Below are positions 4,991 to 28,685 of a stretch of 35,838 bases of DNA, piece by piece (within the stretch, counting starts at the first letter, position 1; every line of letters starts with the position of its first letter). A program made the translations under genes and the position numbers. The notes below the pieces were generated by a model, which saw only the letters and a list, made by a program, of their open reading frames with translations, had not been told where the DNA came from and made no database searches. The DNA is from Rhodocyclaceae bacterium (GTDB lineage: Bacteria; Pseudomonadota; Gammaproteobacteria; Burkholderiales; Rhodocyclaceae), in assembly GCA_020445785.1 (NCBI GenBank), contig JAGRFZ010000086.1, forward strand, positions 1 to 35,838. Reading direction: 5' to 3'.

Positions 4991-5071
4991 AGTCGGCTTC
5001 GCTCGCTGCGGCCCGCCTGGTGCGGGCGCCGAGCCTGTCGGGTCGCGAGGACGCGCGAACGATTGAAACAA

Positions 5072-5111: not shown

Positions 5112-5133
5112 CCATCGAACAGGAGATCTGCCC

Positions 5134-5454: not shown

Positions 5455-5536
5455 GTCCGACCGCTGCGGCGGTTCGCAGGCGGGGGCAGCGTCGCCCCGG
5501 CTGCGACCGAACATGGCCGCAGCATCCGGGCGGAAG

Positions 5537-5568
5537 GCGAGCGCGGCGGGCGTTTCCCGCCGCGTCGC
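5537..5568. terminator. Hairpin between convergent genes
   Basis: Arms CGCGGCGGG (5542-5550) and CCCGCCGCG (5556-5564) enclose CGTTT; GCGA/TCGC extends the stem around one bulged base. It lies between two converging genes and probably ends or stabilises both transcripts, though no T-run is present. Confidence 0.5.
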
Positions 5569-5585
5569 CCGCGCCCGGCAGGCCC

Positions 5586-6746
5586 TTACAGGACGAGCTG
5601 GGAGCGGAGCTTGTCGAGCAACTTCGGACCCAGCCCCTTGATGCGAGTGACGTCCTCCAGCTTGGCATAGGGGCGACCGGCGACCACGGCGTCCGCCAGC
5701 TTCTTCGAGACGCCCTTGAGGGCGGCCAGTTCCACCGCCTTGGCCTTGTTGATCGAGATCGGCGCGACCTCGGGGGCCACCTTCGTGCTCTTGGCCGGCG
5801 CCGTCTTGCCGTTGGTTGACGGCTTCTTCTCGGCCACGGGCTTCGCTTCGGAAACGGGCTTCGCTTTGGCCACCGGCTTCGCTTCGGCCACCGGCTTCGC
5901 TTCGGCCGCCGGCTTCGCAGCGGCAGTCGGCTTGCTTTCAGCCACCGGCTTCTTCGGCTCGACTTCGGCCGCCGCTGCCGGCGCCGCGACCGGCGTATCG
6001 ATCGCTGCTGCCGCGCTGCTGGCCACCACGTAGGTCTGGGCGAAGCGCGAGAAGTCCCGCGTGACGAAGCCGCTCGGCGTCCATTCACGCAGCATCAGCG
6101 TCATGTGCCACTCGCCCGGCGGCAACTGCGCGGCCGGCAGCGAGAAATTGAGGTCGACGAAGGCGTCCTGGCCGGCCAGCGACCCGATCTGAATGCCGGC
6201 GACCGGTACTCCCTGGAAGTCGCCACCGCGATAGGCCACCGGCAAGGCCCACAACTCGAGCGACATCGTGCCGCTGAGGTTGCTCGGGTCCCGCGGGTTC
6301 TCGATCCTGCCGACGCCGAGTTCGACCTCGTCGCCCTCGAAGCGATAACCGACGACGCCGCCGAGTCGCGGCAGGTGGAAATGCTGGGGATGGGAGAACG
6401 CGGAGAAGTCGTGCTGCTCCTCTCCTTCCGGTCCGAAGCAGGCCAGGCGCAGGCCGACCCGGTGGGCGTGGTCGCCGGCCGGCAGGCTGGCAAGGGCGGA
6501 GCCGCCGACCGGGACCACCGCCCCTTGGGCTGCAGACACCGCCCCAAGCGGCACTTCGGCGATGCACACCGCCGGTCCGTTGTCGTCGGTCCAGAACTGC
6601 AGCTTCCAGTCGGCGACCGCGGCGCGCGCCGGGTCACAAATCTGCAGGTCTGCTTCGAAGTGGGCGACATCGCCTTCGATCCGGTAATTCATCGGGCCGG
6701 CAAAGCGCATCGCGGCGGCCTCGGGCGCAACAATCTGACTCATCAT
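5586..6746 (-). CDS. Helix-hairpin-helix protein with Lys/Ala/Pro repeat linker
   Basis: A 386-residue protein in three parts. Residues 1 to about 260 look like one or two beta-sandwich units rich in aromatic strands (YRIEGDVAHFEADLQI, WKLQFWTDDNG, WHMTLMLREWTPSGF). Residues of about 265-330 form a low-complexity linker of repeated PVAEAK-type hexads. The C-terminal part (from INKAKAVELAALKGVSKK to IKGLGPKLLDKLRSQL) is a helix-hairpin-helix pair of the ComEA type, with the GVSKKLA and GLGPKLL hairpins, which usually binds DNA non-specifically. No signal peptide is seen. The start may be either of the tandem ATGs (6746 or 6743). The role is unknown; a DNA- or nucleoid-associated function is inferred only from the C-terminal domain. 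Confidence 0.82.
   Translation of the reverse strand: MMSQIVAPEAAAMRFAGPMNYRIEGDVAHFEADLQICDPARAAVADWKLQFWTDDNGPAVCIAEVPLGAVSAAQGAVVPVGGSALASLPAGDHAHRVGLRLACFGPEGEEQHDFSAFSHPQHFHLPRLGGVVGYRFEGDEVELGVGRIENPRDPSNLSGTMSLELWALPVAYRGGDFQGVPVAGIQIGSLAGQDAFVDLNFSLPAAQLPPGEWHMTLMLREWTPSGFVTRDFSRFAQTYVVASSAAAAIDTPVAAPAAAAEVEPKKPVAESKPTAAAKPAAEAKPVAEAKPVAKAKPVSEAKPVAEKKPSTNGKTAPAKSTKVAPEVAPISINKAKAVELAALKGVSKKLADAVVAGRPYAKLEDVTRIKGLGPKLLDKLRSQLVL
5818..5950 (-). repeat. Degenerate 18-bp tandem repeats coding for PVAEAK-like hexads
   Basis: The linker DNA of the helix-hairpin-helix gene consists of about six imperfect 18-base units coding for variants of K-P-V-A-E-A. All changes keep frame, so unit loss or gain would only change linker length. 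Confidence 0.6.
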
Positions 6747-6868: not shown

Positions 6869-9800
6869 TCAGCGGCCATGGAAACGCCCCAGGGCGAAAC
6901 GATAGACGAGCGGGATCACGAACAGGGTCAGCACCGTGGAAAACCCCAGCCCCCAGACGATGCTAGCCGCCACCGGCCCCCACATCAGCGACTTGCCACC
7001 GAGGCCGACCGCCAGCGAAAACAGCCCGCCGATGGTCGTCGCCGAGGTGATCAGAATCGGCACCACACGCCGCCGGGCGGCATACAGGATGGCGTGGAGG
7101 ACGCTCATGCCCCCACGCAGGCGCTCGTTGGCGGCGTCGATCAGGACGATGGCCGCGTTGACCGAAATGCCGGTCAGCGCGACCACCCCGTAGAGCGTAT
7201 AGAGCGACATCGGATTGCCCGACACCAGCAGTCCCAACACGACACCGGTGAAGGCCAGCGGCACGGTGACGAGAATGATCAGCGGCTGGAAATAGCTGCG
7301 AAACTGGGTCGCGAGAATCAGGTAGATCAGACCCACCCCGAGCCCGAACAGCTTGGCCATCGAATCCAGGCTCTCCTGGATGTCGTCGAGCTCGCCCGAG
7401 AAATCGAGGGACGCGGCCGGATGGGCGAGCTGCAACTCGGCCCAGGCCGCCTTGAGCGCATCGTTGGCGCTGACCGTGTCGGTCCGGGCGGGATCGATGT
7501 CGGCTTCGACGGTGATCGCCCGCTTCAACGCGTAGTGGCGGATGTATCCCTTGGCCAGCCGGGACTGGGCATCGACCACCGCCGACAGGGGCACGCTGCC
7601 GCCCCCCGCGACCGGCACCTGTCGCTGCAGGATCGCCGCAACATCCACCAGGGCACCGGGCTGCGCACGCACCACGACCTCGACCTTCTCGCCGCCGTCG
7701 CGCGTGCTGGCCACGACTTCGCCCTCGCCGTAGAGACGGAGTACCCGCGCCACCCGGCCGGCGTCGGCACCGGCCAGCGCCAGGCGTTCCCGGTTCAGGC
7801 GCAAGCGCAACTCCCGTCGTCCCGGCGTATCGTCGTCGCTGATGTTGCGTACGCCGTCGACGCGCCGCAGGGCGCCGATCAAATCGTCGGCGGCGGCCCG
7901 CAGGGCTTCGTAGTCGTCCGCCTTGACCTTGACGCTGATCGCGCGCGAGGTCGGCGGACCGCCCTTCAATTCCAGAAACGAAACCTGGGCACCATCGCCC
8001 GCCACGGCCCGAACGCCGTCCAGCGCGTCGATGATCGCCGCCGTGTCACGCATGCCCGCGCGGCTCGGTTCGAGCGAGACCAGTACCTGAGCGTAGTGAT
8101 CGCCGTAGAGCGGTTCGGTCTCGGCGAACTTGATGCCGGCATAGGCAGTGACCGAGCGCACTTCGCCGGCGTCGAGCTCGCGCCGAACCGCGGCCGCGAC
8201 CCGATCGGCCGCGGCCAGCGAACGCTCGAGCACGACGCCCGCCGGCATATCGACGTTGACGTAGAACAGGCGGAACGAATCGAAGGCAAAGAATTGCATC
8301 TTGACCAGGCCGCCCCCCAGCGCGCCGGCGGCGCCGGCGACCAGCACAAGCGCCGCCAGCAGGGCACTGCGCGGCCAGCGCATCACCCGCAGCAGGATGC
8401 GCCCGTAGGTCAGGCGCAGGCGATGGGTCATGCGCCACCGCCGTCGACTGCCGGCACCACCGCCGGCACTGCCCCGGGCGCGGATCGCCAGTACGTGCAC
8501 CGGCAGCATCCAGAACGCTTCGAACAGGCTCACCGCGAGCGCCACCGTCACCACGAACGGCACGACGAACATGAACTTGCCGAGGATGCCGGGCAGCAGC
8601 ATCAGCGGCAGGAACGCCGCCATTGTCGTCAGCACCGAACTGGTCACCGGCAGCCACACTTCGCGCACGCCATCGAGCACCGCCTGCACGGCCTCTGCGC
8701 CCCGGCTGAGGCGATAGTGGATTGCCTCCACCACCACCACCGCGTCGTCCACCAGCATGCCGAGCGCGATCACCACGCCGAGCAGGACCGTGAGATTGAG
8801 CGTCGACCCGCTGGCCGCGACGACCAGAAAAGTGCCGGCGAGCGAAAACGGGACGCCGACGCCGACCAGCAACGCCAGGCGCGGCCCGAGAAACAACCAG
8901 CAGGCCAGCAGCACCGCCAACAGGCCCAGCAGGGCATTCGACTCCATCACCGAGATTGCACTGCGCGTCATGTGGGTCTGATCGTCCAGCATCGTCAGCC
9001 GCAGCCCCTGACGGGCGAGCAGGGGCTGCTGGCCTTCGGCAAACTGTTTCAGGCGATCCACCAGCTCCAGGGTATTGATCCGCGGCTGTTTGGTGATCGA
9101 CAGCATCACGCTGGGCTGGGCGTTGTAGCTGACCAACTGGCTCGAGCGCTCGTGGCCACGGCTGACCCGCGCGACCTCCCCCAGCGCGACCCGACCCGCG
9201 CCGGTCGGAATCGGCGCGCGGGCCAGTTGCTGGGGGTCCGGCGTCTTGCCCTCGAGACGGACCAGCCATTCCTCGTCGCGAACCCGCACCCGACCCGCCA
9301 GCGTATTGCGAAACCACGCCGAGACCGCATCGGAAACCCGGTCCGGCGACAGGCCACGGGCGGCCAGCGCAGCAGGATCGAATTCGACATGGAGCTCGGC
9401 GTCGTCGAGCCCGGCTGCGATGACCTGGTCGACCCCGGGCAGTCGCTCCAGGTCTTTCTTCATCCGAAATGCCGCGGCGCGCAGGTTCTCGCCCCCGGCC
9501 TCCCCGTGCAGCGCCAGGATCGCCGACGGGAACCCGTTCGAGGTGGTGATCTCGAGCACCCGCGGATCGTCGGCTTCCTCGGGCAGCTCGTCGGCAGCCT
9601 CGTTCTGCACCTCGCGGCGCAGATCGTTGATGCGCTTGTCGAAGGCCGAATCCGACAATTCGTTGAAGCGCACCAGGATCGACGAAACCGATTCGCGACT
9701 GCTCGAGGAGACGAACTTGATGTCCTTGACCCGGGCAATGGCATCCTCCAGCGGCGAGGTCACTTCGCGCTCGACATCTTCGGCGGACGCTCCGGGCAGC

Positions 9801-9949
9801 ACCGTGAGGATATTCACCCAATTGAAATTGATCTCCGGATCCTGGGCACGCGGCATCGTCACGTAGCTGACGAAACCGCCGAGCAACACCAGCGCGAAGG
9901 CGATGTTGGCCAGCGGATGGTTCTCCAGCAGGCGGCGGTAGAAACCCAC
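6869..9949 (-). CDS. RND family efflux transporter, inner-membrane pump subunit
   Basis: A 1026-residue AcrB/MexB-fold proton-driven exporter, of the usual family length. The N-terminus FYRRLLENHPLANIAFALVLL is a first membrane helix, followed by the porter-domain hallmark DPEINFNWVNILTVLPGASAEDVEREV, seen as NILTVLPGASAEDVE. TM4 carries the proton-relay acidic pair in GMLVDDAVVVVEAI. A second large periplasmic loop begins near residue 530 and the C-terminal helices contain LYTLYGVVALTGISVNAAIVLID. The sequence resembles HAE1-like pumps of non-enteric proteobacteria, not the metal-exporting HME type. Start is GTG 9949; the MGFYRRLLENHP beginning matches relatives. The adaptor gene lies 69 bases upstream; no outer-membrane channel gene is in the window. 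Confidence 0.95.
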   Translation of the reverse strand: MGFYRRLLENHPLANIAFALVLLGGFVSYVTMPRAQDPEINFNWVNILTVLPGASAEDVEREVTSPLEDAIARVKDIKFVSSSSRESVSSILVRFNELSDSAFDKRINDLRREVQNEAADELPEEADDPRVLEITTSNGFPSAILALHGEAGGENLRAAAFRMKKDLERLPGVDQVIAAGLDDAELHVEFDPAALAARGLSPDRVSDAVSAWFRNTLAGRVRVRDEEWLVRLEGKTPDPQQLARAPIPTGAGRVALGEVARVSRGHERSSQLVSYNAQPSVMLSITKQPRINTLELVDRLKQFAEGQQPLLARQGLRLTMLDDQTHMTRSAISVMESNALLGLLAVLLACWLFLGPRLALLVGVGVPFSLAGTFLVVAASGSTLNLTVLLGVVIALGMLVDDAVVVVEAIHYRLSRGAEAVQAVLDGVREVWLPVTSSVLTTMAAFLPLMLLPGILGKFMFVVPFVVTVALAVSLFEAFWMLPVHVLAIRARGSAGGGAGSRRRWRMTHRLRLTYGRILLRVMRWPRSALLAALVLVAGAAGALGGGLVKMQFFAFDSFRLFYVNVDMPAGVVLERSLAAADRVAAAVRRELDAGEVRSVTAYAGIKFAETEPLYGDHYAQVLVSLEPSRAGMRDTAAIIDALDGVRAVAGDGAQVSFLELKGGPPTSRAISVKVKADDYEALRAAADDLIGALRRVDGVRNISDDDTPGRRELRLRLNRERLALAGADAGRVARVLRLYGEGEVVASTRDGGEKVEVVVRAQPGALVDVAAILQRQVPVAGGGSVPLSAVVDAQSRLAKGYIRHYALKRAITVEADIDPARTDTVSANDALKAAWAELQLAHPAASLDFSGELDDIQESLDSMAKLFGLGVGLIYLILATQFRSYFQPLIILVTVPLAFTGVVLGLLVSGNPMSLYTLYGVVALTGISVNAAIVLIDAANERLRGGMSVLHAILYAARRRVVPILITSATTIGGLFSLAVGLGGKSLMWGPVAASIVWGLGFSTVLTLFVIPLVYRFALGRFHGR

Positions 9950-10018
9950 GGCGCTAGGTTCCCGCGGCGACAGGAGGCCGCACCGCTTTCGAGCACAGCA
10001 GGCCGGGCAGCGCGGCGC

Positions 10019-11020
10019 TCATTGCCCCGGTGCCCCGCCGAGGCCGAGCCGCCCCTGGTCGACGACCTCCGTTGCCAACGGCCAGTCCACCGCCGCGGGG
10101 CGCCCGAACTCGGCGCCGGCGATCGGGGTGAATACCGGCTCGCCGGCGTCCACGACGAAGGCACCGAGGCGACCGTCGCGCGCCTGCAGATAGTCCGGCG
10201 GCAGGTGCGGCACCGGAGAACGCCATTGCAACTCTCCCGCCAGGCCCGGAGCCAGGTCCTCGTCGCCGCCGAGCACCACCTCCCGAGTCTGGCCGGCCGT
10301 ATCGACGACACCGGAAACGCGCAGGATGCGAACCGCTCGCTCCTGCCCGCCCGCAGCCAGCAGCAGGCCTTCCGCCGCGCGCAGTTCGGCGAGTTGGGCA
10401 ATCGGCACCGCAGCACGGATTTCGACGTCGTCCGAGGAGGCATAGACCAGCAGTGGCGTCCCCGGCGCGGCCAGTTCGCCGACACTCGCCAGGCGTTCGC
10501 GGACGACGCCGTCGAAAGGCGCGCGGATCGTCGTCCGGGCCAGATCGAGGCGGGCGGCGGCCAGCGCCTGCACGGCCGCCTCGCGCTCGGCCGACAGCAC
10601 TTCGAGCTCGGTGCGCTGAACCTTGAGGGCGTCGTCGCTGACGAAGTTCTCGCCGGCCAGACGCTCCGAGCGCGCTAGTTGCGACTCGGCCAGCAGGATG
10701 CGCTTGTCCACCAGTGTCAGCGCCGCCTGCGCGCGACGCGCCTGGATGCGATGGCTTCGCTCGTCGAGGCGTGCCAGCACTTCGCCCTTGCGCATGGCCA
10801 GACCGACGCGCGCCGGCAGCGCCTCGATGCGCCCGGCCACTTCGGCGGAAATGCGCGCTTCGTCGCGGGCATGCACCGTCGCCGGCACGCTGTAGCCGGG
10901 ATAGGTTGCCAATTCGGCCAGTGGCCGGCTGTCCCAGCCGGCAGCGTGGGCGATTCCGATCGCCGCCACCAGGCTTCCGAGCAGAGCCCCGAAGGTTCGC
11001 AGTCGTCCGCTTGCCACCAT
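10019..11020 (-). CDS. RND efflux periplasmic adaptor (HlyD/AcrA-like membrane fusion protein)
   Basis: About 333 residues from ATG 11020. The N-terminal hydrophobic stretch (GALLGSLVAAIGIAHA) is a signal sequence or anchor with an AHA-A cleavage-like site. Adaptor landmarks follow in order: beta-barrel/lipoyl half VPATVHARDEARISAEVAGRI, a helical hairpin rich in Ala/Arg/Glu (about residues 80-150), and the returning lipoyl strand LARTTIRAPFDGVVRERLASVGE, seen as TTIRAPFDGVVRERL. It bridges the RND pump to an outer-membrane channel. ATG 11020 is preceded by GGGGGC a few bases away; ATG 11032 and the far upstream 11104 are less likely. The gene is upstream of the pump gene on the same strand, making an adaptor-pump operon. 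Confidence 0.9.
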   Translation of the reverse strand: MVASGRLRTFGALLGSLVAAIGIAHAAGWDSRPLAELATYPGYSVPATVHARDEARISAEVAGRIEALPARVGLAMRKGEVLARLDERSHRIQARRAQAALTLVDKRILLAESQLARSERLAGENFVSDDALKVQRTELEVLSAEREAAVQALAAARLDLARTTIRAPFDGVVRERLASVGELAAPGTPLLVYASSDDVEIRAAVPIAQLAELRAAEGLLLAAGGQERAVRILRVSGVVDTAGQTREVVLGGDEDLAPGLAGELQWRSPVPHLPPDYLQARDGRLGAFVVDAGEPVFTPIAGAEFGRPAAVDWPLATEVVDQGRLGLGGAPGQ

Positions 11021-11195
11021 CCACGCCCCCATGCATGCACGAGCATTGCCGGCCCCCGACCGCCTGACGCGACGGGCCGGTTGCCGCCACGCCCGGCCGC
11101 CCATTTTGGATCAATCCCGAGCCGCTTTGATAGCGCCTGCCAGATTCTGTAACCACTGGACGGTGCCGCGTGCGCAGGCACAACCGTACCGCCGA

Positions 11196-11222
11196 TAAAG
11201 TTTCCGTAGCCGGCGCCGATCC
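11196..11222 (+). promoter_or_regulatory. Sigma28 (FliA) promoter of the chemotaxis receptor
   Basis: TAAAGTTT (11196-11203), an 11-base spacer, then GCCGATCC (11215-11222). The known FliA consensus is TAAAGTTT-N11-GCCGATAA, so the -35 is perfect, the spacer exact and the -10 matches 6 of 8. It lies 54 bases before the receptor start and places this gene in the flagellar regulon. Confidence 0.85.
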
Positions 11223-11276
11223 TCTGACTGACGAATTCTCGCGTCATTGCCGAGGCCCGTACATCTCGAGGACATC

Positions 11277-12893
11277 ATGAAACGGCTTGCCGACACGCCC
11301 ATCTGGATGCGCTTGACCGCCGCGATCTGGCTACTGCTGTCGATCGTCTGGGGTTCGTTCATTTTCTGGGAAACTCGGGCGAGCCGCGAGATCGCGATCG
11401 ACCAATCCGCATTGTTCGCCGCCAGCCTCAGCGAAACCACGGTCGCCGGCCTGACCGGCATGATGATCAACGGCACCATCGGGCGCCGCGAAGTCTTTCT
11501 GGACCAGATCGCGCGCCTCGATGCGGTGCGGGAACTGCGCGTCTTGCGCGCCGACGCGGTTTCCGAATCCTATGGACGCCCCGCCGACGAACCTCGGCCG
11601 GACGAGGCCGAACGCCGAGCGCTCGAAAGCGGGACGCCGTCGCGCAGCCTGGTGGACGTGGGCGGAACGGAGCAATTGCGGATGATCTTTCCGATCCTCG
11701 CGCGCGAAGACTATCTCGGCAAGAATTGCCTGGGCTGTCACCAGGTACCGGCCGGCACGCCGCTGGGCGCGGTCAGCATGCGCGTCTCCCTCGACCGGGT
11801 CGACTCTGCAGTGGCGAAGTTCCGCGACACCGGAATTCTCTTCGCGATCTTCGCGTCGCTGGGCGTGCTGCCGATCGTGTTCCTGTTCGTGCGTCGTTTC
11901 GTCAGTGCTCCGCTGGCCGGCATGGCGGACGGCTTGACCGAGCTGGCTCGCGGTGAAGGCGATCTCACGCGGCGCCTCGAGATCCGCGGCGAGGACGAGA
12001 TCGGCCGCGTCGCCGGCCTGTTCAACCGCATGCTCGCATCGATTGCGCGGCTCGTGGAGGAGGTCGGCTCGTCGGCAAACGCCGTCGCCGGCGCCTCGCG
12101 GGACCTGAGCGGCGACGCCATCGAGCTTGCCCGCGGCTCGACCGAACAACACGCGCATTCGGCCGATGCCAAGGACGCAGTGGACGGTCTCGTCGGCAGC
12201 GCCGACAAGGTGGCCGAGGATGCCGGCAGCGTCAGCGAGCTGTCGCGGGAGAGCGAATTGCGCGCCGCGGAGGGGCGAACCCGTGTCGGCGGCCTGATCG
12301 CGGATGTCGGCGAAGTGGCCACGGCCGTCAGTGAAATCGGCGAGGCGGTGCGCAGCTTCGTCGATGCCGCCGGCAGGATCTCGGCGATGACGCAGGAGGT
12401 ACGGGAGATCGCCGATCAGACCAATCTGCTGGCACTCAACGCGGCGATCGAGGCCGCCCGCGCCGGCGAGCACGGCCGTGGCTTTGCGGTAGTCGCCGAC
12501 GAGGTGCGCAGGCTGGCCGAGAAGTCCGCCCACTCCGCTACCGCGATCGACGATATCACTCGCACGATCAGCGACAAGGCGGTCATCGTCGATCGTTCCC
12601 TCCAATCGGGCGAGCGTCATCTGGCGCAGAGCCGGGCCGCGGCCGGCGAAGTCGCCTCGGTGTTGGCCGGCGCCGTCGACACCGTGGTCGCCGTGCGCGG
12701 CGGCCTCGAGCGGATCGCCACCGAAGCCGAGCAGCAGCGTCGGGGCGGGCACGCGGTGCGCGACAGCATCGCCGCGATCGAGCAGATGGCGAGCCGCAAC
12801 CAGCGCGCCGTGATGCGCGCTGCCGAGGGCGCGACACAACTCGACGAACTGGCCCGAAGGCTGCAGCAGCGGGTATCTCGCTTTCGCGTCTAG
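11277..12893 (+). CDS. Methyl-accepting chemotaxis protein with CxxCH sensor domain
   Basis: A 538-residue transmembrane chemoreceptor. TM1 is about residues 11-31 ([19 protein letters not shown]), the periplasmic sensor runs to about 185, TM2 about 186-207, then HAMP (from [19 protein letters not shown]) and the methyl-accepting coiled coil. The signalling tip is clear: [20 protein letters not shown] then [20 protein letters not shown]. The sensor domain contains C151-L-G-C154-H155, the covalent haem-c attachment motif, followed by a VSMRVSLD strand, as in haem-containing PAS-like sensors of Geobacter chemoreceptors. It would signal to CheW/CheA in response to redox state or a haem ligand; that is inferred. 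Start ATG 11277 has CGAGGA five bases upstream. No C-terminal CheR-binding pentapeptide is present. Confidence 0.93.
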
Positions 12894-12915
12894 CGCCGGA
12901 CGATCGAAAACCGCT

Positions 12916-14244
12916 TCAGTCGTGGCCACCCGTGCGAATGGCCAGCGGGATGCGGATCGTCACGCGCAGCCCGCCCTGCGGGCGGTTGACCGCCGACACG
13001 CGACCGCCATGGGCGGCCACCGCCCGATGGGCGATGGCGAGGCCCAGGCCGAAGCCTTCGGCGCTGGCACCGGCGCTGCGGAAGAACGGTTCGAAGATGC
13101 TCTCCAGCTCGCCTTCCGGCACCCCCGGGCCCCGATCCGCCACGGTCAGCTCGAATTCGCCGCCCGCCACCCGGGCGGCGACCTCGACCCGCCCTCCCGG
13201 CGGCGAGAACTTCACGGCGTTGCGCAAGACGTTCTCGAACGCCCGCTGGAGGCGCGCGCCGTCGGCGGTCAGCGGCGCCAGACCCTCACCCTGGAAATCC
13301 AGCGAGCGACCCGAGACATCCGCCTCGAAGGCCGCGTCCTGCGCCACGCCGGCAGCCAGATCGAACAGGTCGAGCGCTTCCAGCCGGGCATCGCTGGCGC
13401 CGGAATCGAGCCGCGCGAGCGTCAGCAACTCGCCGACCAGCCGGTCGAGCCGGCCTGCCTCGCGCTCGACCCGCTCCATCAATTCGACGCCACGCGCTGG
13501 ATTCTGGCGCGCCAACCCGATGGCCGCCTGCAGCCGTGCGAGCGGCGATCGCAGTTCGTGGGAGACGTCGTGCAACAGTCGCCGCTGGGCCGTCACCAGC
13601 GCCTGTAGTCGATTGGCCATGTGGTCGAAGTCCTGCCCGAGATCGATGAACTCGTCGCGCCAGGTTCCCATCCGCGCGGCGACCCGGGTATCGAGCCGGC
13701 CGTCGGCCATCGAGCCAAAAGCGCTGCGCAGCTTCTGCACCGGGCGGGCCAGATACCAGGCCATGACGCCGCTGAAAGCCAGGCTCGCGAACAGCCCGGA
13801 GAGTAGCGGCAGCCAGGGCTCGGGCCCGCCGCGGCCACCGCGCCGCCGCGCGTCGCGCGGCGGAGAGATGGTCACGACGTCGTATTCGGCGCCTTCCACG
13901 GTCGTCACCGCGACGCTGTCGCGCGTCATTCCATGCGCGCGGGCTTCTCCGACATCGGGGACGGTTCGGCCACGTAGTTCGTGGCCGCCCCGATCGAGCA
14001 CGAATACCCTCGTGCGCGGCCCACGGGCATCCCATTCATCCAGCATTGCACCGGCCGCGCCGGGTCCGCCGTGCCGCAGCACGCTGGCGAAGGACTGAAG
14101 CACGAAGCCGCCACGTCGTCCGCCGCCGTCCGTGTCGTCCAGGTCGACCTGCTTGTAGATCCACACCGCCACGCCGACACCGACGGCGGCCAGCACCAGG
14201 CTCAACCAGAAGGCGACGAACAATTTCCAGAACAGGCGGCCCAC
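12916..14244 (-). CDS. cpxA: CpxA-like envelope-stress sensor histidine kinase
   Basis: A 442-residue inner-membrane kinase. TM1 (about residues 7-29), a short periplasmic domain with Gly/Arg-rich stretches, TM2 (about 143-165), HAMP (from ARPVQKLRSAFGSMADGRLD), HisKA with phospho-acceptor H229 in HDVSHELRSPLARL, and a HATPase with N-box NVLRNAVKFSPPGG, G1 DRGPGVPEGELESIFEPFF and G2 GFGLGLAIAHR. The GTG start at 14244 lies just inside the regulator's 3' end, overlapping it; the longer frame to 14523 is antisense-like filler within the regulator. The assignment to the Cpx type rests on H-box sequence, the adjacent CpxR-like regulator and the divergent Spy-like gene. RstB is the main alternative. 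Confidence 0.87.
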   Translation of the reverse strand: MGRLFWKLFVAFWLSLVLAAVGVGVAVWIYKQVDLDDTDGGGRRGGFVLQSFASVLRHGGPGAAGAMLDEWDARGPRTRVFVLDRGGHELRGRTVPDVGEARAHGMTRDSVAVTTVEGAEYDVVTISPPRDARRRGGRGGPEPWLPLLSGLFASLAFSGVMAWYLARPVQKLRSAFGSMADGRLDTRVAARMGTWRDEFIDLGQDFDHMANRLQALVTAQRRLLHDVSHELRSPLARLQAAIGLARQNPARGVELMERVEREAGRLDRLVGELLTLARLDSGASDARLEALDLFDLAAGVAQDAAFEADVSGRSLDFQGEGLAPLTADGARLQRAFENVLRNAVKFSPPGGRVEVAARVAGGEFELTVADRGPGVPEGELESIFEPFFRSAGASAEGFGLGLAIAHRAVAAHGGRVSAVNRPQGGLRVTIRIPLAIRTGGHD

Positions 14245-14249
14245 GACCG

Positions 14250-14936
14250 TCAGACCTTGACCAACTGGTAGCCCTGACCACGCACCGTCTGGATCCACGA
14301 CTGACCGTCCTGGCGTGGACCGAGCTTGTGGCGAATGCTCGAGACATGCACGTCGATGCTGCGGTCGAAGCGTGTCAATGGGCGGCCCAGGCCCTGTTCC
14401 GAGAGTTCGTCCTTGCCGACCACGTGGCCGGCCTTGCGCGCCAGCAACTCGAGCAGATTGAATTCGGTACTGGTCAGTTCCAACGGTTGCCCCTGCCAGC
14501 CCGCTTCCCGGCGTTCCGGCCACATGGTCAGGGGTCCGGCCTGGACAGGACCACCGTCGGCAACCGCCTCGGCTTCACCGCTGCGCCGCAGAATCGCCCG
14601 TATCCTCGCCACCAGTTCGCGTGGGGTGCAAGGCTTGGGCACGTAGTCGTCGGCGCCCATCTCGAGGCCGACGATGCGGTCCACATCGTCACCTCGGGCG
14701 GTCAGCATGATGACCGGGATGCGGCTACCCTGGCGAATCCGCCGCAAAGTCTCGACACCGTTCATGCGCGGCATCATCACGTCCAGCACCGCGATCGCGA
14801 AGTCGCCAGCGAGGGCGGCCGCGGCGCCGGCTTCGCCATCGTGCTCGGCGTGGGTCTCGAACCCTTCCTGCTGCAGATATTCCGCCAGCATCGAAACCAA
14901 CTCGACATCGTCGTCCACGAGCAGCACCTTGCTCAT
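14250..14936 (-). CDS. cpxR: CpxR-like OmpR-family response regulator
   Basis: A 228-residue two-domain regulator. The receiver has acidic pocket D8-D10 in LLVDDDVEL, phospho-acceptor D52 in AVLDVMMPRMNG, T79 and K101 in VPKPCTPRELVARI. The C-terminal winged helix contains LTSTEFNLLELLARKAGHVV, seen as TEFNLLELLARKAG, and the recognition region RSIDVHVSSIRHKLG ending in TVRGQGYQLV. It should be phosphorylated by the downstream kinase and bind direct GTAAA repeats, if its specificity matches CpxR; such sites are present in the upstream divergent region. CpxR and RstA are close paralogues, so the name is by context. Confidence 0.9.
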   Translation of the reverse strand: MSKVLLVDDDVELVSMLAEYLQQEGFETHAEHDGEAGAAAALAGDFAIAVLDVMMPRMNGVETLRRIRQGSRIPVIMLTARGDDVDRIVGLEMGADDYVPKPCTPRELVARIRAILRRSGEAEAVADGGPVQAGPLTMWPERREAGWQGQPLELTSTEFNLLELLARKAGHVVGKDELSEQGLGRPLTRFDRSIDVHVSSIRHKLGPRQDGQSWIQTVRGQGYQLVKV

Positions 14937-15077
14937 CGCTCACCCTCCTCGCAGTCCGGCGCTTCGCGACGGTGGCCGACCAGGAAATGGGCCGGCAAGT
15001 CGGTCGCCGCCCATCATGCGCACCGTCGCTCGCCATCATACGGTCCGCGGTCGCGCACACATCAGGTTTTTCCACTC

Positions 15078-15113
15078 TTAACCCGCCTTTACACACCATT
15101 GACCGGACTTAAC
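15078..15113 (-). promoter_or_regulatory. CpxR-box-like site, with a phased third half-site
   Basis: Read on the minus strand, GTAAA (15088-15092) and GTTAA (15078-15082) are separated by five bases, one change from the GTAAA-N5-GTAAA CpxR consensus. A further GTTAA (15109-15113) lies about two helical turns from the central half-site. It is about 142 bases upstream of the cpxR-like start, suggesting autoregulation. Confidence 0.55.
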
Positions 15114-15211
15114 AGCCGCCCGGCGACAATCGAGTCGACGACGGTCTCTGCTGGCACCCGCGGAGAGGCCAAGCCCGGCATCGAACCGGCGCGGCACGGA
15201 CGAAGCGGCGC

Positions 15212-15226
15212 TTTACCTCGATTTAC
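15212..15226 (-). promoter_or_regulatory. Perfect CpxR box upstream of the Spy-like gene
   Basis: TTTAC-CTCGA-TTTAC on the plus strand is GTAAA-N5-GTAAA on the minus strand, an exact match to the CpxR consensus. It lies 91 bases before the Spy-like start codon, a suitable distance for activation of that operon. Confidence 0.7.
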
Positions 15227-15317
15227 CCGTCGCTAACGGCGCTTCACGGTGGCCGGCGGCACACTGCAGTCATCCGGCTACACCCGGAAACAGCAGTGCA
15301 ACCGATAGGAGAACATC

Positions 15318-15854
15318 ATGAATGCACGTAACAAGATCATTGCCGGCATCGTCGCGGTCAGCGGACTCGCCCTCGCCGTCCCCTTCGTCGCCCATGCCGA
15401 TTCCATGGGCGGCGGCTGCGAAGGCGGCCGCCATGGAGGCCACCACCGCATGTTCGGCGAACACGGCGGCAAGCATGGCGGCGGCGCCATGGCCGGCGGC
15501 GAACGGATGCTGCGCAAACTGGATCTGAACGAGGAGCAACGCGACCGCGTCTTCGAACTTCGCCACGCCCAGGCGCCCCAGATGCGGGCCAAATGGAAGG
15601 AGGCCAAGCAGGCACGCCAGGCCTTGCGCGAACTGGCGTGGTCGGGCGAATACGACGCCAGCAAGGCCGCCGAACTGGCACGCCAGGGCGCGGACGCCAT
15701 GGCGGAGATCGCCGGTATGCGGGCGAAGCTGCAGGCCGACATCTTCCAGTTGCTGAACGAGGAGCAACGCACCCGGCTGGGTGAATTGCGGACCCAGAGG
15801 GATCGCGAAGGGGATCGGCCGATGCGCTGGCGCCATGAGCAGCGACACGGCTGA
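15318..15854 (+). CDS. Spy/CpxP-family periplasmic protein (LTxxQ-like)
   Basis: A 178-residue exported protein. Residues 1-27 form a signal peptide (IIAGIVAVSGLALAVPFVAHA, cleaved after AHA). A Gly/His-rich segment (about residues 30-58, with RHGGHHRMFGEHGGKHGG) follows and may bind Zn, Cu or Ni. The remainder is the helical Spy/CpxP fold with two copies of the family motif in degenerate form: LDLNEEQRDRVFELR and LLNEEQRTRLGELR. Such proteins are ATP-independent chaperones, or brakes on the Cpx kinase. It has a good ribosome site, a CpxR box upstream, and is followed 41 bases later by a lipoprotein gene likely in the same operon. Confidence 0.88.
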   Translation: MNARNKIIAGIVAVSGLALAVPFVAHADSMGGGCEGGRHGGHHRMFGEHGGKHGGGAMAGGERMLRKLDLNEEQRDRVFELRHAQAPQMRAKWKEAKQARQALRELAWSGEYDASKAAELARQGADAMAEIAGMRAKLQADIFQLLNEEQRTRLGELRTQRDREGDRPMRWRHEQRHG

Positions 15855-23347: not shown

Positions 23348-23641
23348 ATGTTCCGCTTCCATGTGGTCAAGCTGCTGAGCCTGCGCTGGTGGCTGGTCTT
23401 CCTGCTCGCCGGTGTGTTCTTCATGGCCTTCGGTGCGGTCTCCTACAACCTGTTCCGCCTGCTGCAAGCCAACATCTGGCTGTTCGCGGAGCATGGCCTG
23501 ATGGTGATCGCCGAAGGCGCCCTGGAGCAACTGCTGGAACTCACGCTGATGGGCTACGCCAGTCTGCTGCTGTGGCTCGGCTTCAAGGCGTGCGAGGGGT
23601 GGCTGGTGGCCACGCTGATGCAATACCGCAGCCGTGACTGA
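23348..23641 (+). CDS. Small membrane protein, 97 residues, unrecognised
   Basis: A 97-residue protein with a first membrane helix at about residues 13-35 (WWLVFLLAGVFFMAFGAVSY) and a second at about 63-85 (LLELTLMGYASLLLWLGF), and an acidic/aromatic loop between them. ATG 23348 has GGGAGA at a suitable distance; the in-frame ATG at 23261 has no support. It lies 146 bases upstream of the bufferin operon on the same strand. I do not recognise the family. Confidence 0.6.
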   Translation: MFRFHVVKLLSLRWWLVFLLAGVFFMAFGAVSYNLFRLLQANIWLFAEHGLMVIAEGALEQLLELTLMGYASLLLWLGFKACEGWLVATLMQYRSRD

Positions 23642-23655
23642 ATTCGCACATCCGA

Positions 23656-23684
23656 TGTAAGTCCGCACGGACCCGTTCGGTCTA
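23656..23684 (+). promoter_or_regulatory. Possible ECF-sigma-type promoter of the bufferin operon
   Basis: TGTAAGT (23656-23662) is followed 15 bases later by CGGTCTA (23678-23684). TGTAA with a GTC-containing -10 resembles promoters read by ECF sigma factors, and bufferin operons in Caulobacter are under the ECF factor SigF. The match is loose, and it lies about 100 bases before bufA. Confidence 0.35.
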
Positions 23685-23787: not shown

Positions 23788-24051
23788 ATGAACAAACGCC
23801 AATTCCTCGTCGCCGCCGCCATTGCCGGCATCGCCGCCGCCGCCGCCAATCCTGCGCTGGCGGCCAAGGAAGGCAAAGAAAAGTGCTTCGGCATCGCCAA
23901 GGCCGGCGCCAACGACTGCGCCAGTTCGACCGGCGCTCATGCCTGCGCCGGCCAGGCCACGAAGGACAACGACCCCAACGAATGGAAGTACGTTGCCAAG
24001 GGCACCTGCACCGAAATGGGCGGTTCCCTCAAGGCCGGCGGCAAGGGCTGA
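23788..24051 (+). CDS. bufA1: Bufferin precursor peptide BufA1 (DUF2282)
   Basis: An 87-residue exported precursor of the bufferin family, ribosomally made peptides that are modified on cysteines and bind copper. Residues 1-25 are a signal peptide ([20 protein letters not shown], cleaved before AKEG). The mature part carries four cysteines: C33 ([10 protein letters not shown]), C44 (NDCASS), C53 (HACAGQ) and C74 (GTCTEMGG), in the pattern typical of DUF2282. A GGAGA ribosome site precedes the ATG. The maturation genes bufB, bufC and bufD follow. In studied relatives the core cysteines are converted to heterocycles by the BufB/BufC enzyme; the same is inferred here. Confidence 0.93.
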
Positions 24052-24060
24052 CTGCGCCCC

Positions 24061-24085
24061 GGCGCGGCGCGCCATGCGCCGCGCC
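24061..24085 (+). repeat. Strong hairpin between bufA1 and bufB
   Basis: GGCGCGGCGC-GCCAT-GCGCCGCGCC: perfect 10-base arms with a 5-base loop, nine bases after the bufA1 stop and before the bufB start at 24119. No T-run. It probably partly terminates or protects the bufA1 message so that peptide is made in excess over its enzymes. Confidence 0.6.
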
Positions 24086-24118
24086 ACCCATCGCCCCGAT
24101 TCCCTCTCGAGAAATCCC

Positions 24119-24967
24119 ATGCCCACCACGACCGCACTCGCCGGTTACGGCATCGGCCTGCGCGGCTGCCACTACCGCGATTTCCTCGCACACCGCCCAG
24201 CGGTGGACTGGATCGAAGTCCATAGCGAGAACTTCTTCGGCAACGGCGGCTGGGATCTGCACGTGCTCGACCGCCTGCGCCCCGACTACGCGCTCAGCCT
24301 GCACGGCGTCGGCCTCGGCATCGGTTCGGCATCTGCCGAGCATTTCGACGCCCACTTGGCGCGCATCGCCCGCCTCGTCGAACGCTTCGAGCCGGCATTG
24401 GTCTCGGAACACCTGAGCTGGGCGTCGATTCCGGGGCGTCATTTCAACGACCTGCTGCCGATGCCCCTCACCCTCGAGGCGCTCGACCTCGTCAGCGAAC
24501 GCGTCGAGCGCGCCCAGGCCCGGCTCGGCAGGCAGATCCTGCTCGAGAACGTCTCCTCGCACCTGCGTTTCGTCGCCGACATCCTGCCGGAAACCGAGTT
24601 TCTGGCGCGCCTTTGCCAGCGCACCGGCTGCGGTCTGCTGCTCGACGTGAACAACCTCTACGTCAATCAGTGCAACCATGCCGAGGACGCCTTCGAGGCC
24701 ATCGCCACACTGCAGACGGCGCCGGCCGAGATCCATCTCGCCGGCCACCTGGTAACCGAGGATTCGGTGGTGGACCACCATGGCGACCACGTCGCCGAAC
24801 CGGTGTGGAGGCTCTACCAGGAAGCCATTCGTCGCTTCGGTGAAGTGCCGACGCTGATCGAGTGGGACACCGACATCCCGGCGCTCGAGGTGTTGGTCGC
24901 CGAGGCCGCCCAGGCGCGCGACACGGCCGCGCGAGCGCTGGCAGGGCGCGCACGTCGCCATGGCTGA
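24119..24967 (+). CDS. bufB: Multinuclear iron oxidase BufB (DUF692/MNIO)
   Basis: A 282-residue TIM-barrel enzyme of the DUF692 (MNIO) family, related to MbnB and TglH, which use two or three iron ions to modify peptide cysteines. Likely iron ligands are the His, Glu, Asp and Asn residues in [65 protein letters not shown] and LIEWDTDIP. All the expected blocks are present and the length is standard, so it should be active. Start at ATG 24119. Its stop overlaps the bufC start by eight bases (ATGGCTGA), showing tight coupling with the partner. Confidence 0.93.
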
Positions 24968-25751
24968 CGATCTCGCCACGATCCAGCGGTGCATGGCCGA
25001 CGGCCTGCTCGACGCCGGCACCGAGCCGGTCGCCCTGTTCCGCGGCCCTGCAGCCGTCAGCGCGCGGCGCTTCGCGCTCTACCGCGGCAATCTCACGGCC
25101 AACTGGCAGCGCGCCCTGGCCGGCGCCTATCCGGTACTCGAAGCACTCGTCGGTGACGAGTTCTTTCGTGCCTTGGCGCGCCGCTACGCACACAGCCATC
25201 CCTGCCGGGAGGGCGACCTCAACCACTTCGGTGCGGCGCTCGCGGCATTCCTCGGCGATTTCGGCGGGCTCGACGACTACCCCTACATGGCCGACGTGGC
25301 ACGCCTCGAATGGGCGCTGCACCGCGCCCACTACGGCAGCGACGAGGCACCGTTGGCACCGGCCGCACTGGCGGCGATCGAGCCGGCGCTGCTGGGCGAA
25401 TCTCGCATTGCGCTGCATCCCACCGTCGCACTGATCGCCTCGAAGTGGGCGATCGGGCACATCTGGCGGGCCCACCAGCCCGCGGCCACCGAGCCATTGC
25501 CGTACGAGCTGCACGCTGCCTGCCGGATGATCGTCCATCGTCCCCGCTGGCGCGCCGAGTGCCGGGAGGCCGGCATCGGCGAATTCGCCGCCCTGCAGGC
25601 GCTGGCACGCGGCGAGCACCTCGGCGACGCGCTCGAACGCGCAGCCGACGCCGAATCCGATTTCGATCCCGGCGCGACCGTCGCGCGGTGGCTCGACGAA
25701 GGTCTGTGGCTGACTGCGACCCCCCCGACGACACAAGGAGAACTCCGATGA
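24960..25751 (+). CDS. bufC: BufC, DUF2063 partner of the DUF692 oxidase
   Basis: A 263-residue protein of the DUF2063 family. The N-terminal half is helical (from [14 protein letters not shown] to [34 protein letters not shown], seen as [20 protein letters not shown] and [19 protein letters not shown]), the conserved YRGNL and AYPV motifs marking the family; the C-terminal part is a mixed domain with a FVP-less WALHRAHYG centre. In relatives such proteins recognise the precursor and form a complex with the DUF692 enzyme. It overlaps bufB by eight bases and bufD by four (ATGA). Confidence 0.9.
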
Positions 25752-26209
25752 ATGCCGCACTGCGCCTGCACCGTCTGTCCACCGCCTTCGACCGACCGCT
25801 CAACGAGTGGGGGGGATCGCTGCTCTCCCTGGCGATCCGCCTCTACGTCGGCTGGGCCTTCTTCAAATCCGGCCTGACCAAGATCCGCGACTGGGACACC
25901 ACGCTGTTTCTGTTCGAAGACGAATACCAGGTACCGGTATTGCCGCCGGAACTGGCCGCATGGATGGGTACGGCCGGCGAACTGATCCTGCCGCTGCTAC
26001 TGTTCGTCGGCCTGTTTTCCCGCCCCGCCGCCCTCGGCCTGTTCGTCGTCAACGCCATGGCACTGATTTCCTATCCGGCCCTGTTCGAGTTCGAGTGCCC
26101 GGCTGCTGTGCAGGACCACTTCTATTGGGGCGCCATGCTGCTGGTGGTCACCGCGTTCGGCCCGGGGCGGCTGTCGCTCGACGCGCTGATTGCCTCGCGC
26201 GGGCGCTGA
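25748..26209 (+). CDS. bufD: DoxX-family membrane protein BufD
   Basis: A 153-residue DoxX-like protein with four transmembrane helices: SLAIRLYVGWAFFKSGLTK (first, DoxX signature), MGTAGELILPLLLFVGLFSRP, LGLFVVNAMALISYPALF, and FYWGAMLLVVTAFGPGRLSLD, seen as WGAMLLVVTAFGPG. It overlaps bufC in an ATGA and has AAGGAGAA upstream. DoxX-family genes usually close bufferin operons; the molecular role in the pathway is not settled. Confidence 0.88.
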   Translation: MNAALRLHRLSTAFDRPLNEWGGSLLSLAIRLYVGWAFFKSGLTKIRDWDTTLFLFEDEYQVPVLPPELAAWMGTAGELILPLLLFVGLFSRPAALGLFVVNAMALISYPALFEFECPAAVQDHFYWGAMLLVVTAFGPGRLSLDALIASRGR

Positions 26210-26243: not shown

Positions 26244-26750
26244 TCACGCCACCGGCACCTGGATCGCCCGCGGCCGGCCCGGCTGCGCCTTGGGTAGTTC
26301 GATGCGCAGTACGCCGCTACGATAGCTCGCCTTCGACGCCTCGGCCTGAACCGCCGACGGCAGGGCCACCGCCCGGCGGAAGCTGCCGTAGGCACACTGC
26401 ATCACCCGCCAGCGCCCGTCGGTGCCTTCCCGTTCGAAGCGCTTTTCGCCCTGGACGACAAGGGTGTCGTCATCCACCCGGATGTCGAAGTCCTGCTTGC
26501 TCATGCCGGGCACCTCCAGGCGCACGACGATGCGCGTCTCGTCCTCGAACACCTCGCCGCCCAGCATCGACCAGCTGCGGCTCGGTGCAAAGAAGCTGTC
26601 ATCGACCTCGTGTTGTGCCGGCAGCCGGGTGTTCTCGTCGCTGGAAAACCGGGTCAGCGCGCTCGCCGCCGATTCGCGCAATCGCTGCCAGCCGTCCGCC
26701 AGCGAGTGGCGCAGGTGGTCGATGCCGGTTCTGATGTCGTCGATCTTCAT
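26244..26750 (-). CDS. Small heat-shock protein, Hsp20 family (third of three)
   Basis: A 168-residue alpha-crystallin protein. Residues 1-60 are a variable arm (IDDIRTGIDHLRHSLADGW). The crystallin domain runs from about 65 to 155, with VVRLEVPGMSKQDFDIRVDDDTLVVQGEK, seen as RLEVPGMSKQDFDIRVDDDT, and the signature ASYRSGVLRIELPK. The C-terminal I-x-V (RAIQVPV) would dock onto neighbouring dimers. Start ATG 26750 has AGGAG at 9 bases; the frame beyond is not coding. The last gene of a three-gene hsp20 operon read from the sigma32 promoter at 27627-27655. Confidence 0.9.
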   Translation of the reverse strand: MKIDDIRTGIDHLRHSLADGWQRLRESAASALTRFSSDENTRLPAQHEVDDSFFAPSRSWSMLGGEVFEDETRIVVRLEVPGMSKQDFDIRVDDDTLVVQGEKRFEREGTDGRWRVMQCAYGSFRRAVALPSAVQAEASKASYRSGVLRIELPKAQPGRPRAIQVPVA

Positions 26751-26781
26751 GGTTGCTGACTCCTTTCCGCACCCTCGCGCC

Positions 26782-27150
26782 TCAGGCCACGTCGATGCGG
26801 ATCCGTTTCGGCTGGGCCTGCTGGACCCGGGGGATGCGCAGGCGCAGGACGCCGTTCTCGAATTCCGCACCGACGCGCTCGGCATCGAGCTCCTTCGACA
26901 GCGTGAACACGCGGCGATAGTTCAAGGTCGGCTGCTCCTGGTGGGTCCATTGCATGCCCTCCGGCAGCGACAGCCGCGCTTCGCCTTCGATGCGCAACTG
27001 GTCGGCCTCGATGTGCAGCTTGAGACCATCCTTGGGCACTCCCGGCAGGTCCGCCAACAGGGTGATGCCACCCGCGTCCTCGATGACGTCGACGGCCGGC
27101 GAGAGAGTTTCTGCGCGGCTTGCTTCCGCCTGCTTGTTCCGTTCGTTCAT
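26782..27150 (-). CDS. Small heat-shock protein, Hsp20 family (second of three)
   Basis: A 122-residue alpha-crystallin protein, close to the minimal size. Domain start SPAVDVIEDAGGITLLADLPGVPKDGL, seen as VDVIEDAGGITLLADLPGV, and signature EFENGVLRLRIPR, with C-terminal I-x-I (KRIRIDV). ATG 27150 is chosen because GAGGG lies five bases upstream; GTG 27162, which overlaps the previous stop in a GTGA, would give four more residues. ATP-independent holdase that keeps unfolded proteins for the DnaK system. Confidence 0.88.
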   Translation of the reverse strand: MNERNKQAEASRAETLSPAVDVIEDAGGITLLADLPGVPKDGLKLHIEADQLRIEGEARLSLPEGMQWTHQEQPTLNYRRVFTLSKELDAERVGAEFENGVLRLRIPRVQQAQPKRIRIDVA

Positions 27151-27158
27151 GTTCGCCC

Positions 27159-27596
27159 TCACTGCACGTTGATTCGCCGCGGCCGGCTGGCAGCGCGGCG
27201 CGCGACACGGATATGCAGGACCCCGTCGCGGTAGCTCGCGGAGACCGAATCGGGATCGGCATCCTCCGGCAGATTGACCACGCGCCGGAACCGACCGGCA
27301 AAGCGCTCGCCGATATGCACCGCGGTGCGTGCATCCTCCGCCGGCAGCTCACCGGCGCGCTCTCCCGACAGCGTCAGTACGCCGCGATCGAGGGTCAGCT
27401 CGATCGCGGCCGGATCGAGGCCGGGCGCGAAGGCGAAGATCTCGACCGTTTCGGGCGTACCCCCGACGTCGAGCGCGGGAAATCGGCTGTGACCGCTGCC
27501 GCGGATGCTTGCCGACTGCTCCAGGGGATGGCTGTAGTCGCGCTGCAGGCGCTCCAGTTCGGCCATCAGATCTCTCGGAAATACGTTCCACACCAT
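27159..27596 (-). CDS. Small heat-shock protein, Hsp20 family (first of three)
   Basis: A 145-residue alpha-crystallin protein. The N-terminal arm MVWNVFPRDLMAELERLQRD leads to the domain beginning FPALDVGGTPETVEIFAFAPGLDPAA, seen as TVEIFAFAPGLDPAAIELTL, with signature SASYRDGVLHIRVARR and C-terminal RRINV. GGAGGG lies six bases upstream of ATG 27596. This is the first gene of the operon, directly below the sigma32 promoter. The three paralogues differ enough in arms to form distinct or mixed oligomers, as in IbpA/IbpB pairs. Confidence 0.9.
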   Translation of the reverse strand: MVWNVFPRDLMAELERLQRDYSHPLEQSASIRGSGHSRFPALDVGGTPETVEIFAFAPGLDPAAIELTLDRGVLTLSGERAGELPAEDARTAVHIGERFAGRFRRVVNLPEDADPDSVSASYRDGVLHIRVARRAASRPRRINVQ

Positions 27597-27626
27597 GGCA
27601 TGCCCTCCGGCTTGTTCCTGTCGCCG

Positions 27627-27655
27627 ATATGGGGTGGGTCGACGCCGCTTTCAAG
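27627..27655 (-). promoter_or_regulatory. Sigma32 heat-shock promoter of the hsp20 operon
   Basis: On the minus strand CTTGAAA (27649-27655) is followed after 14 bases by CCCCATAT (27627-27634), a near-perfect match to the sigma32 consensus. The hsp20 start codon is 30 bases downstream of the -10. Confidence 0.85.
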
Positions 27656-27657
27656 AC

Positions 27658-27686
27658 CTTGAGAGCCCGGCGGTATGGACCCATAT
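27658..27686 (+). promoter_or_regulatory. Sigma32 heat-shock promoter of the cbpA operon
   Basis: On the plus strand CTTGAGA (27658-27664) is followed after 14 bases by ACCCATAT (27679-27686). Only one change in each element from consensus. The cbpA start is 45 bases after the -10. The two divergent -35 elements are two bases apart. Confidence 0.8.
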
Positions 27687-27731
27687 TAGAAGAGAACGAT
27701 AGATCAACCACCTTGTCCGGGAGGCACTACC

Positions 27732-28685
27732 TTGGAATTCAGGGACTACTACCAGACGCTCGGGGTGGAACGGAACGCCACCGCTGACGAGATTCGCAAG
27801 GCCTTTCGCAAGCTTGCGCGCAAGTATCATCCCGACGTCTCGAAGGCGCCGGACGCCGACGAACGCATGAAGGAAGTGAACGAAGCCTATGCGGTGCTCG
27901 GCGACGCCGAAAAGCGCGCCGCCTACGACCAAGTAGGCCAAGGCTTTGCACCGGGCCAGGAGTTCTCGCCGCCGCCGGGCTGGGACGACGGATTCGAATG
28001 GTCCGGGCGCCAATTCCATGCGCGCGACGCTGGCGAATTCAGCGACTTCTTCGCCGAGTTGTTCGGCCGCATGGGGCGCGACGGGCCGGGTCGCCCCGGC
28101 CGGCACGAGTTCCACGGCCGTGGCGAGGACCACATCGCCCGGGTGCATCTGGATCTGGAAGACGCCTATCGCGGCGCCAATCGCCAGATCACGCTGCGCT
28201 CGCCGCGGATCGATGCGGAGGGTCGCGTGCAGTTCGACACCCGCACCCTCGATGTGCGCATCCCCAAGGGTGTGCGCGAAGGCCAGATCATCCGTCTCGC
28301 CGGCCAGGGTCATCCGGGCTTCGGCGACGGCCAGGCCGGCGACCTGCTGCTCGAGGTGCATTTCCGGCCGCACCCGAGATTCCGGGCCGAAGGGCGCGAT
28401 GTCCAAATGACGCTCCCGGTCGCACCGTGGGAGGCGGCGCTCGGCGCGGTGATCGAAGTCGACATGCCGAACGGAAAGCTGCGGGTGCGAATCCCGGCAG
28501 GCGCCCAGAGCGGCCGCCAACTGCGGGTGCGCGGCCACGGTCTGCCCGGCGCCCAGCCGGGCGACCTGCTGCTCGAGCTCCGGGTGGTGCTGCCATCGGC
28601 CGACGACCCCAGGGCACGAGCGCTGTACGAGCGGATGGCCGAGGAGCTCGACTTCGACCCGCGGGGGAGCGCCGGCCATGGTTGA
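27732..28685 (+). CDS. cbpA: Curved-DNA-binding protein/DnaJ-type co-chaperone CbpA
   Basis: A 317-residue type-II J-protein. The J-domain is residues 1-70 with H33-P34-D35 in RKYHPDVSK, needed to stimulate DnaK. A Gly/Phe-rich linker (about 72-125) precedes two peptide-binding beta domains ([21 protein letters not shown] and [13 protein letters not shown], the second seen as [21 protein letters not shown]). No zinc-finger domain, as usual for CbpA. The start codon is TTG 27732 with GGGAGG seven bases upstream. Followed by cbpM, overlapping by eight bases; heat-induced from the promoter above. Confidence 0.93.

Follow-up and report, generated by a model that had tools for sequence, protein, structure and literature searches.

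Does a compact four-gene cluster of a Rhodocyclaceae bacterium encode a complete bufferin pathway, and if so, from where might it be controlled? The window, meaning the whole stretch of 35,838 nucleotides that was analyzed, is contig 220 of a 231-contig draft genome of 4.58 Mb, estimated to be ~89% complete. The features discussed below are as follows:

23348-23641, + strand: orfU, 97 aa, a small membrane protein without a named family; possible accessory, located 5' of the motif
23656-23684, + strand: promoter-like motif TGTAAG-N18-GTCTA, lying 132 bases ahead of the start of bufA; putative ECF-sigma promoter
23788-24051, + strand: bufA, 87 aa, DUF2282 bufferin precursor (Pfam DUF2282, 87.6 bits)
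24119-24967, + strand: bufB, 282 aa, MNIO (formerly DUF692) maturase (NCBIfam MNIO_BufB and Pfam)
24960-25751, + strand: bufC, 263 aa, DUF2063 partner protein (Pfam DUF2063)
25748-26209, + strand: bufD, 153 aa, DoxX-family membrane protein (Pfam DoxX)

Gene Order and Family Assignment

As the first-pass annotation had proposed, bufA, bufB, bufC and bufD follow one another in that order as complete open reading frames on the + strand. A gap of 67 bases separates bufA from bufB, and the overlaps described earlier, 8 bases between bufB and bufC and 4 bases between bufC and bufD, were confirmed. The calls of DUF2282, DUF692, DUF2063 and DoxX were likewise upheld by Pfam scores far above the respective cut-offs (in parentheses): 87.6 bits for DUF2282 (22.4), 314 for MbnB_TglH_ChrH (25), 85.9 for DUF2063 (27.2) and 63.9 for DoxX (23.6). 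A scan for the sigma-70 consensus returned no promoter-like sites, and a terminator scan returned a single terminator-like site, which lies inside bufC and is below the shuffled mean of 1.8.

The same gene order recurs widely. In the 80 named loci (L004-L083), which are the loci retrieved with BufB as the query, tblastn placed bufA-bufB-bufC in 77 and the full bufA-bufB-bufC-bufD series in 48, and this recurrence was counted in favor of a Buf1 bufferin operon. The founding member of this class, the Buf1 operon of Caulobacter vibrioides, has the same order of DUF2282 four-cysteine precursor, MNIO, DUF2063 and DoxX genes, and the gigPABT operon of the betaproteobacterium Cupriavidus metallidurans CH34 is of the same four-gene type (PMC10304878; tblastn). 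Judged by sequence, the operon is probably a complete Buf1 bufferin operon and a further example of a known system, with a probability of about 0.85.

Several related systems were considered and set aside. The oxazolin (Hvf) operon also combines a related MNIO, a DUF2063 partner and a DoxX-type protein, but the proteins scored below the corresponding cut-offs (HvfB, 208.4 against 360 bits; HvfC, 54.8 against 142; HvfX, 56 against 80), and BufA lacks EGKCG repeats. The methanobactin (mbn) operon has the MNIO fold family in common with the present one but differs in precursor and partner types, and BufB reached 54.5 bits against an MbnB cut-off of 325. BufB also fell below the NCBIfam cut-offs for the ApyH and chryseobactin (ChrH) types.

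The region 26244-28685, on the 3' side of the operon, contains a + strand gene of the DnaJ type and three - strand genes of the Hsp20 type, of which two were assigned by Pfam and one by BLAST clustering; Hsp20-like and DnaJ-like neighbors recur in L004, L005 and L006. Elsewhere in the window, the region 6869-15854 contains an AcrB-family (RND) transporter gene, a sensor kinase/response regulator pair and a Metal_resist/LTXXQ gene, which suggests a metal or envelope stress cluster. In four other loci (L089, L105, L107 and L112), all of them short stretches, a DoxX relative came after a bufA relative, and neither bufB nor bufC was matched between the two.

The BufA Precursor

The N-terminus of BufA, inspected by eye, resembles a signal peptide. 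The 87-residue product contains the four cysteines that had been listed as the core of the peptide, as follows:

23884-23886, + strand: C33, predicted disulfide partner of C74
23917-23919, + strand: C44, predicted thiooxazole site
23944-23946, + strand: C53, predicted thiooxazole site
24007-24009, + strand: C74, predicted disulfide partner of C33

Their presence was borne out, with one refinement: the four are not equivalent among themselves, since in Buf1 modification affects the central two cysteines, and a disulfide joins the outer two (PMC12452194). All four were invariant across a set of 110 distinct BufA sequences that includes the one from the window; part of this invariance is expected, because the set was gathered by homology. 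The fold model of BufA had a mean pLDDT of 58.8, too poor for judging the C33-C74 disulfide, and a profile search of BufA against the PDB gave no match.

The BufB Maturase

BufB scored 338 bits against the NCBIfam bufferin-maturase model MNIO_BufB (NF050167) and thus passed its cut-off of 310. Its closest counterparts in named records belong to the Rhodocyclaceae metagenome genomes HKST-UBA162, -165 and -167, with 83, 87 and 72% identity, respectively, over the best segment. Ten residues (H62, H98, E143, D176, N179, H206, D219, H221, E248 and D250) were unchanged in all 98 distinct BufB sequences, and N178 was kept in 96 of the 98. In an alignment with 3BWW, these conserved positions fall on the iron site, the alignment becoming weak after residue 210 (16.7 bits). 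The first-pass annotation had held that loss of iron-ligand residues would speak against its reading. BufB keeps the residues aligned with the 3BWW iron site, and apart from N178 they are unchanged among its relatives, so this objection does not arise.

The roles that we give to the remaining active-site positions of BufB are presumed ones. Likewise, N179 (or N178), D219 and H221 of BufB presumably correspond to HvfB N175, D242 and H244. The latter three are the site-3 positions of HvfB (PMC13419390). By comparison with FonB, D250 of BufB would match the proposed catalytic base and R15 would match Arg15; this position is R or K in all 98 distinct BufB sequences. G16, on the other hand, is variable among the relatives, and T251 (82/98) sits at the position of FonB Phe250, in line with the report that DUF2282-type MNIOs have lost conservation at the FonB sites matching these two residues (PMC12668002).

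The conservation also bears on whether the operon might be a decayed or silent copy, a reading for which the draft state of the assembly leaves some room. The four reading frames are open and the key residues intact, and the nearest relative has kept 97% identity in BufA and 83% in BufB, making such decay very improbable.

BufC and Natural BufB-BufC Fusions

The DUF2063 match in BufC covers residues 8-98 (85.9 bits), and the length of the protein, 263 aa, fits a partner with an RRE-type domain. Neither single-sequence nor profile searches of BufC against the PDB found a structural match for the RRE part. (Among the sequences of the BufC alignment are some pieces of BufB-BufC fusion proteins, truncated at an internal start.)

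In the window, BufB and BufC are encoded by separate genes that overlap by the 8 bases mentioned above. In 44 of the 80 named loci, the two form one open reading frame of 531-817 codons with the BufB part first, as in L009, where the fused frame runs from position 5950. Such fusions fit an obligate enzyme-partner pair. They are the natural counterpart of an artificial HvfBC fusion, which was more active than the separate proteins when coexpressed (PMC13419390).

A Promoter-Like Motif Upstream of bufA

The first-pass annotation had remarked that no sigma/anti-sigma gene sits beside the operon. This stands for the 24 genes, out of 35 called in the window, that went through a Pfam scan, as no sigma or anti-sigma family was detected among them; the other 11 comprise the Hsp20-like gene at 27159-27596 and ten genes that lie below 12.9 kb. 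The Caulobacter locus is different in that sigma and NrsF genes are adjacent, while none was found adjacent here among the same 24 genes, and in the second box of its promoter, which is CGAA there and GTCTA here. The features expected of a sigma-F/NrsF (ECF16) controlled locus were not found: the 24 scanned genes include no such gene, and the window has no site of the sigma-F form TGTAAC-N16/18-CGAA. A variant site is present instead.

This site, TGTAAGTCCGCACGGACCCGTTCGGTCTA, occupies 23656-23684, between orfU and bufA. In its general form, TGTAAG-N17/18-G[A/T]CTA, it was present in 46 of 110 distinct bufA upstream regions, whereas 100 shuffles averaged 0.05 and never exceeded 1; these figures are to be read knowing that the pattern was defined after inspecting the same data, that related sequences are not independent and that the shuffles preserved base composition only. 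Within the 80 named loci, the motif occurred 38 times in 38 loci, in every case on the bufA strand and no more than 300 bases upstream of bufA, and it was found nowhere else on either strand of these loci (922,243 bases).

The layout of the motif resembles that of the Caulobacter sigma-F site, GTAACC-N16-CGAA (PMC3511200), and of the TGTAAC...CGAAT sequences listed for Sinorhizobium meliloti RpoE7 promoters (PMC6180224), with a different second box. With a conserved ECF-type motif in front of bufA, a missing neighboring sigma gene need not mean that there is no sigma factor. Nor is a sigma gene near bufA shown to be absent by the scan of upstream neighbors, as this covered 82 of 150 genes and listed 25 of 57 families; a tblastn search of the 80 named loci with one ECF sigma factor matched two, L018 and L078.

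Where a sigma gene does adjoin bufA, the site may take either form. In L157, the sigma-F form precedes bufA, and genes for NrsF and for a divergently oriented ECF sigma factor lie beside it. The gigPABT operon of C. metallidurans CH34 differs from the present one in that it and the ECF sigma gene rpoQ point away from each other, with TGTAACC-N16-CGAA sites oriented in both directions; we located these sigma-F-form sites by eye from a listing of TGTAA sequences between gigP and the sigma gene, which was itself placed by tblastn, the record being unannotated there. According to the C. metallidurans study, no promoter had been identified 5' of gig, and control by RpoQ could only be an assumption (PMC10304878). 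In L018, the TGTAAG motif separates bufA from a divergently oriented ECF sigma gene, after which comes a DUF3379 gene (the two genes at 4366-5624). The pair is a candidate for the cognate sigma/anti-sigma of the TGTAAG motif, in which the DUF3379 product would presumably act as the anti-sigma factor. A precedent of a kind for control in trans is provided by Haemophilus influenzae, where the rpoE2 gene lies with msrAB and membership in the RpoE2 regulon was tested for a DoxX/DUF2063/COG3220 region (PMC7907618).

The conserved element might instead be a repressor or activator site. Of the 110 bufA upstream regions, 63 carry neither the TGTAAG nor the sigma-F form of the motif, which leaves room for such a reading. 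However, both the two-box layout and its spacing match the Caulobacter sigma-F and S. meliloti RpoE7 promoters (PMC3511200, PMC6180224), and in L018 the motif stands between bufA and an ECF sigma gene of opposite orientation. We consider a role other than that of a promoter rather unlikely.

A Buf2-Type Operon in the Same Genome

A second MNIO operon is present in the genome of the window, on contig 113 (L162), at 8865-10800. Its MNIO is 45% identical to BufB and is accompanied by a DUF2063 partner, as in the window. The precursor, however, is not of the DUF2282 type but has six cysteines, and was called Buf2-type from its Cys-Lys motifs, by motif and not by a model; the operon would accordingly be of the Buf2 (6/12-Cys) kind. 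A near-copy of the bufA motif, TGTAAGCATTGCTGGGCTCGAGCGGTCTT, lies 89 bases before the start of this precursor.

To place this observation, 21 regions were compared, consisting of 20 MNIO places and contig 113, from which L163, L166, L170 and L174 were dropped because they had no Buf2-type precursor match. In the resulting 17 Buf2-type operons, the relaxed form of the motif was present in six (L162, L164, L165, L167, L171 and L172) and the exact form in three. In L162, L164, L165 and L167, all four of which belong to the genus of the window, the motif lies 87-89 bases before the precursor. The occurrence of a near-copy at a Buf2 operon suggests that both operons answer to one sigma factor whose gene lies away from them, and the simplest reading of the sequences is that one regulator may be common to the Buf1 and Buf2 operons of this genome. 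The cautions given above for the bufA motif, on its definition from the same data, on relatedness and on the shuffles, hold for these counts as well. A published survey found sigma/anti-sigma genes in Buf1 clusters and not in Buf2 clusters (PMC12452194).

Two other arrangements were observed in this sample. L176, L177 and L179 have two tandem Buf2-type precursor genes before a single MNIO. In L174, an ECF sigma gene (278-847) lies 5' of an oxazolin-like precursor with GKCG-type repeats (1073-1438), beside an MNIO.

OrfU

The orfU gene lies 5' of the motif. No named family was found for its product; searches with OrfU relatives were weak (best E 0.0019). The model is a two-helix hairpin (pLDDT 82.6) that gave no Foldseek match at E <= 0.001, and a PDB match to one engineered protein covered only 16 positions and was taken as chance.

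By genome content, orfU accompanies bufferin genes. In a family sample of 199 genomes, orfU was present in 18, all of which have DUF2282 (18/18, vs 64/199 overall), and in an order sample of 300 genomes it was present in 15, again all with DUF2282 (15/15, vs 96/300 overall). MNIO was present in all 34 orfU genomes tested (18/18 and 16/16), a count made among orfU genomes only; one genome, G842, has orfU and MNIO and no DUF2282. The control family EutB was also enriched in DUF2282 genomes (26/45; Fisher p ~5e-5), indicating that ancestry or genome type accounts for part of the co-occurrence of orfU and DUF2282.

The position of orfU is more varied. It adjoins bufA in G035, in G117 and in all five orfU-bearing genomes of the window's genus, lies within ~3 kb of bufA in G014 and G202 and at ~6 kb in G235, and adjoins another MNIO operon in G836. 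In nine of the 18 orfU genomes of the family sample, no DUF2282 gene lies within 3 kb of orfU. Out of 28 orfU regions retrieved, eight also contained bufferin genes, and in ten orfU adjoined leuD. No motif was found upstream of orfU, and no orfU was found on plasmids. OrfU is a possible bufferin accessory and a weaker lead than the motif and the fusions.

Taken together with the motif at both operon types, these data allow a tentative proposal, which we regard as possible rather than probable: in Rhodocyclaceae and related Betaproteobacteria, TGTAAG-N17/18-G[A/T]CTA would be a distinct class of ECF-sigma promoter that drives Buf1, and in the genus of the window also Buf2, from a distant sigma gene, making one two-system regulon, with OrfU as an unrecognized accessory.

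Proposed Pathway and Implications

In characterized systems, an MNIO and its DUF2063 partner convert cysteines of a Sec-exported precursor to 5-thiooxazoles (PMC12452194, PMC12668002); the Buf1 product is a periplasmic copper binder and improves growth when copper is in excess (PMC12452194). In the pathway proposed here, an ECF sigma factor with a distant gene, released by envelope or metal stress, would start transcription at TGTAAG-N18-GTCTA. By analogy with the family, BufA would be presented by BufC before its export, and the iron enzyme BufB would oxidize C44 and C53 of this precursor to 5-thiooxazoles. BufA would then be exported by Sec, the C33-C74 disulfide would close, and the mature peptide would hold excess copper in the periplasm, with BufD as a putative inner-membrane accessory.

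The modified peptide might also serve mainly against a stress other than copper, be it gold, cadmium or chromate, or hypochlorite or another oxidant. In Caulobacter, a response to chromium and cadmium is known for sigma-F genes of this type (PMC3511200), the gig genes are induced by both copper and gold (PMC10304878), and the DoxX/DUF2063/COG3220 region of H. influenzae was followed under hypochlorite in the wild type and an rpoE2 mutant (PMC7907618). Nevertheless, the characterized Buf1 peptide binds copper and helps growth in copper excess (PMC12452194), and Gig contributes to copper resistance (PMC10304878). A main stress other than copper is thus quite unlikely, and copper remains the preferred reading.

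The operon itself is one more case of Buf1. The useful parts are two leads, the promoter motif and the natural BufB-BufC fusions, neither of which is mentioned in the literature searched, which included excerpts of PMC12452194, PMC12668002 and PMC13419390 and covered papers apart from their supplements. The two forms of the motif supply sites that can be tested and a starting point for tracing the remainder of each regulon.
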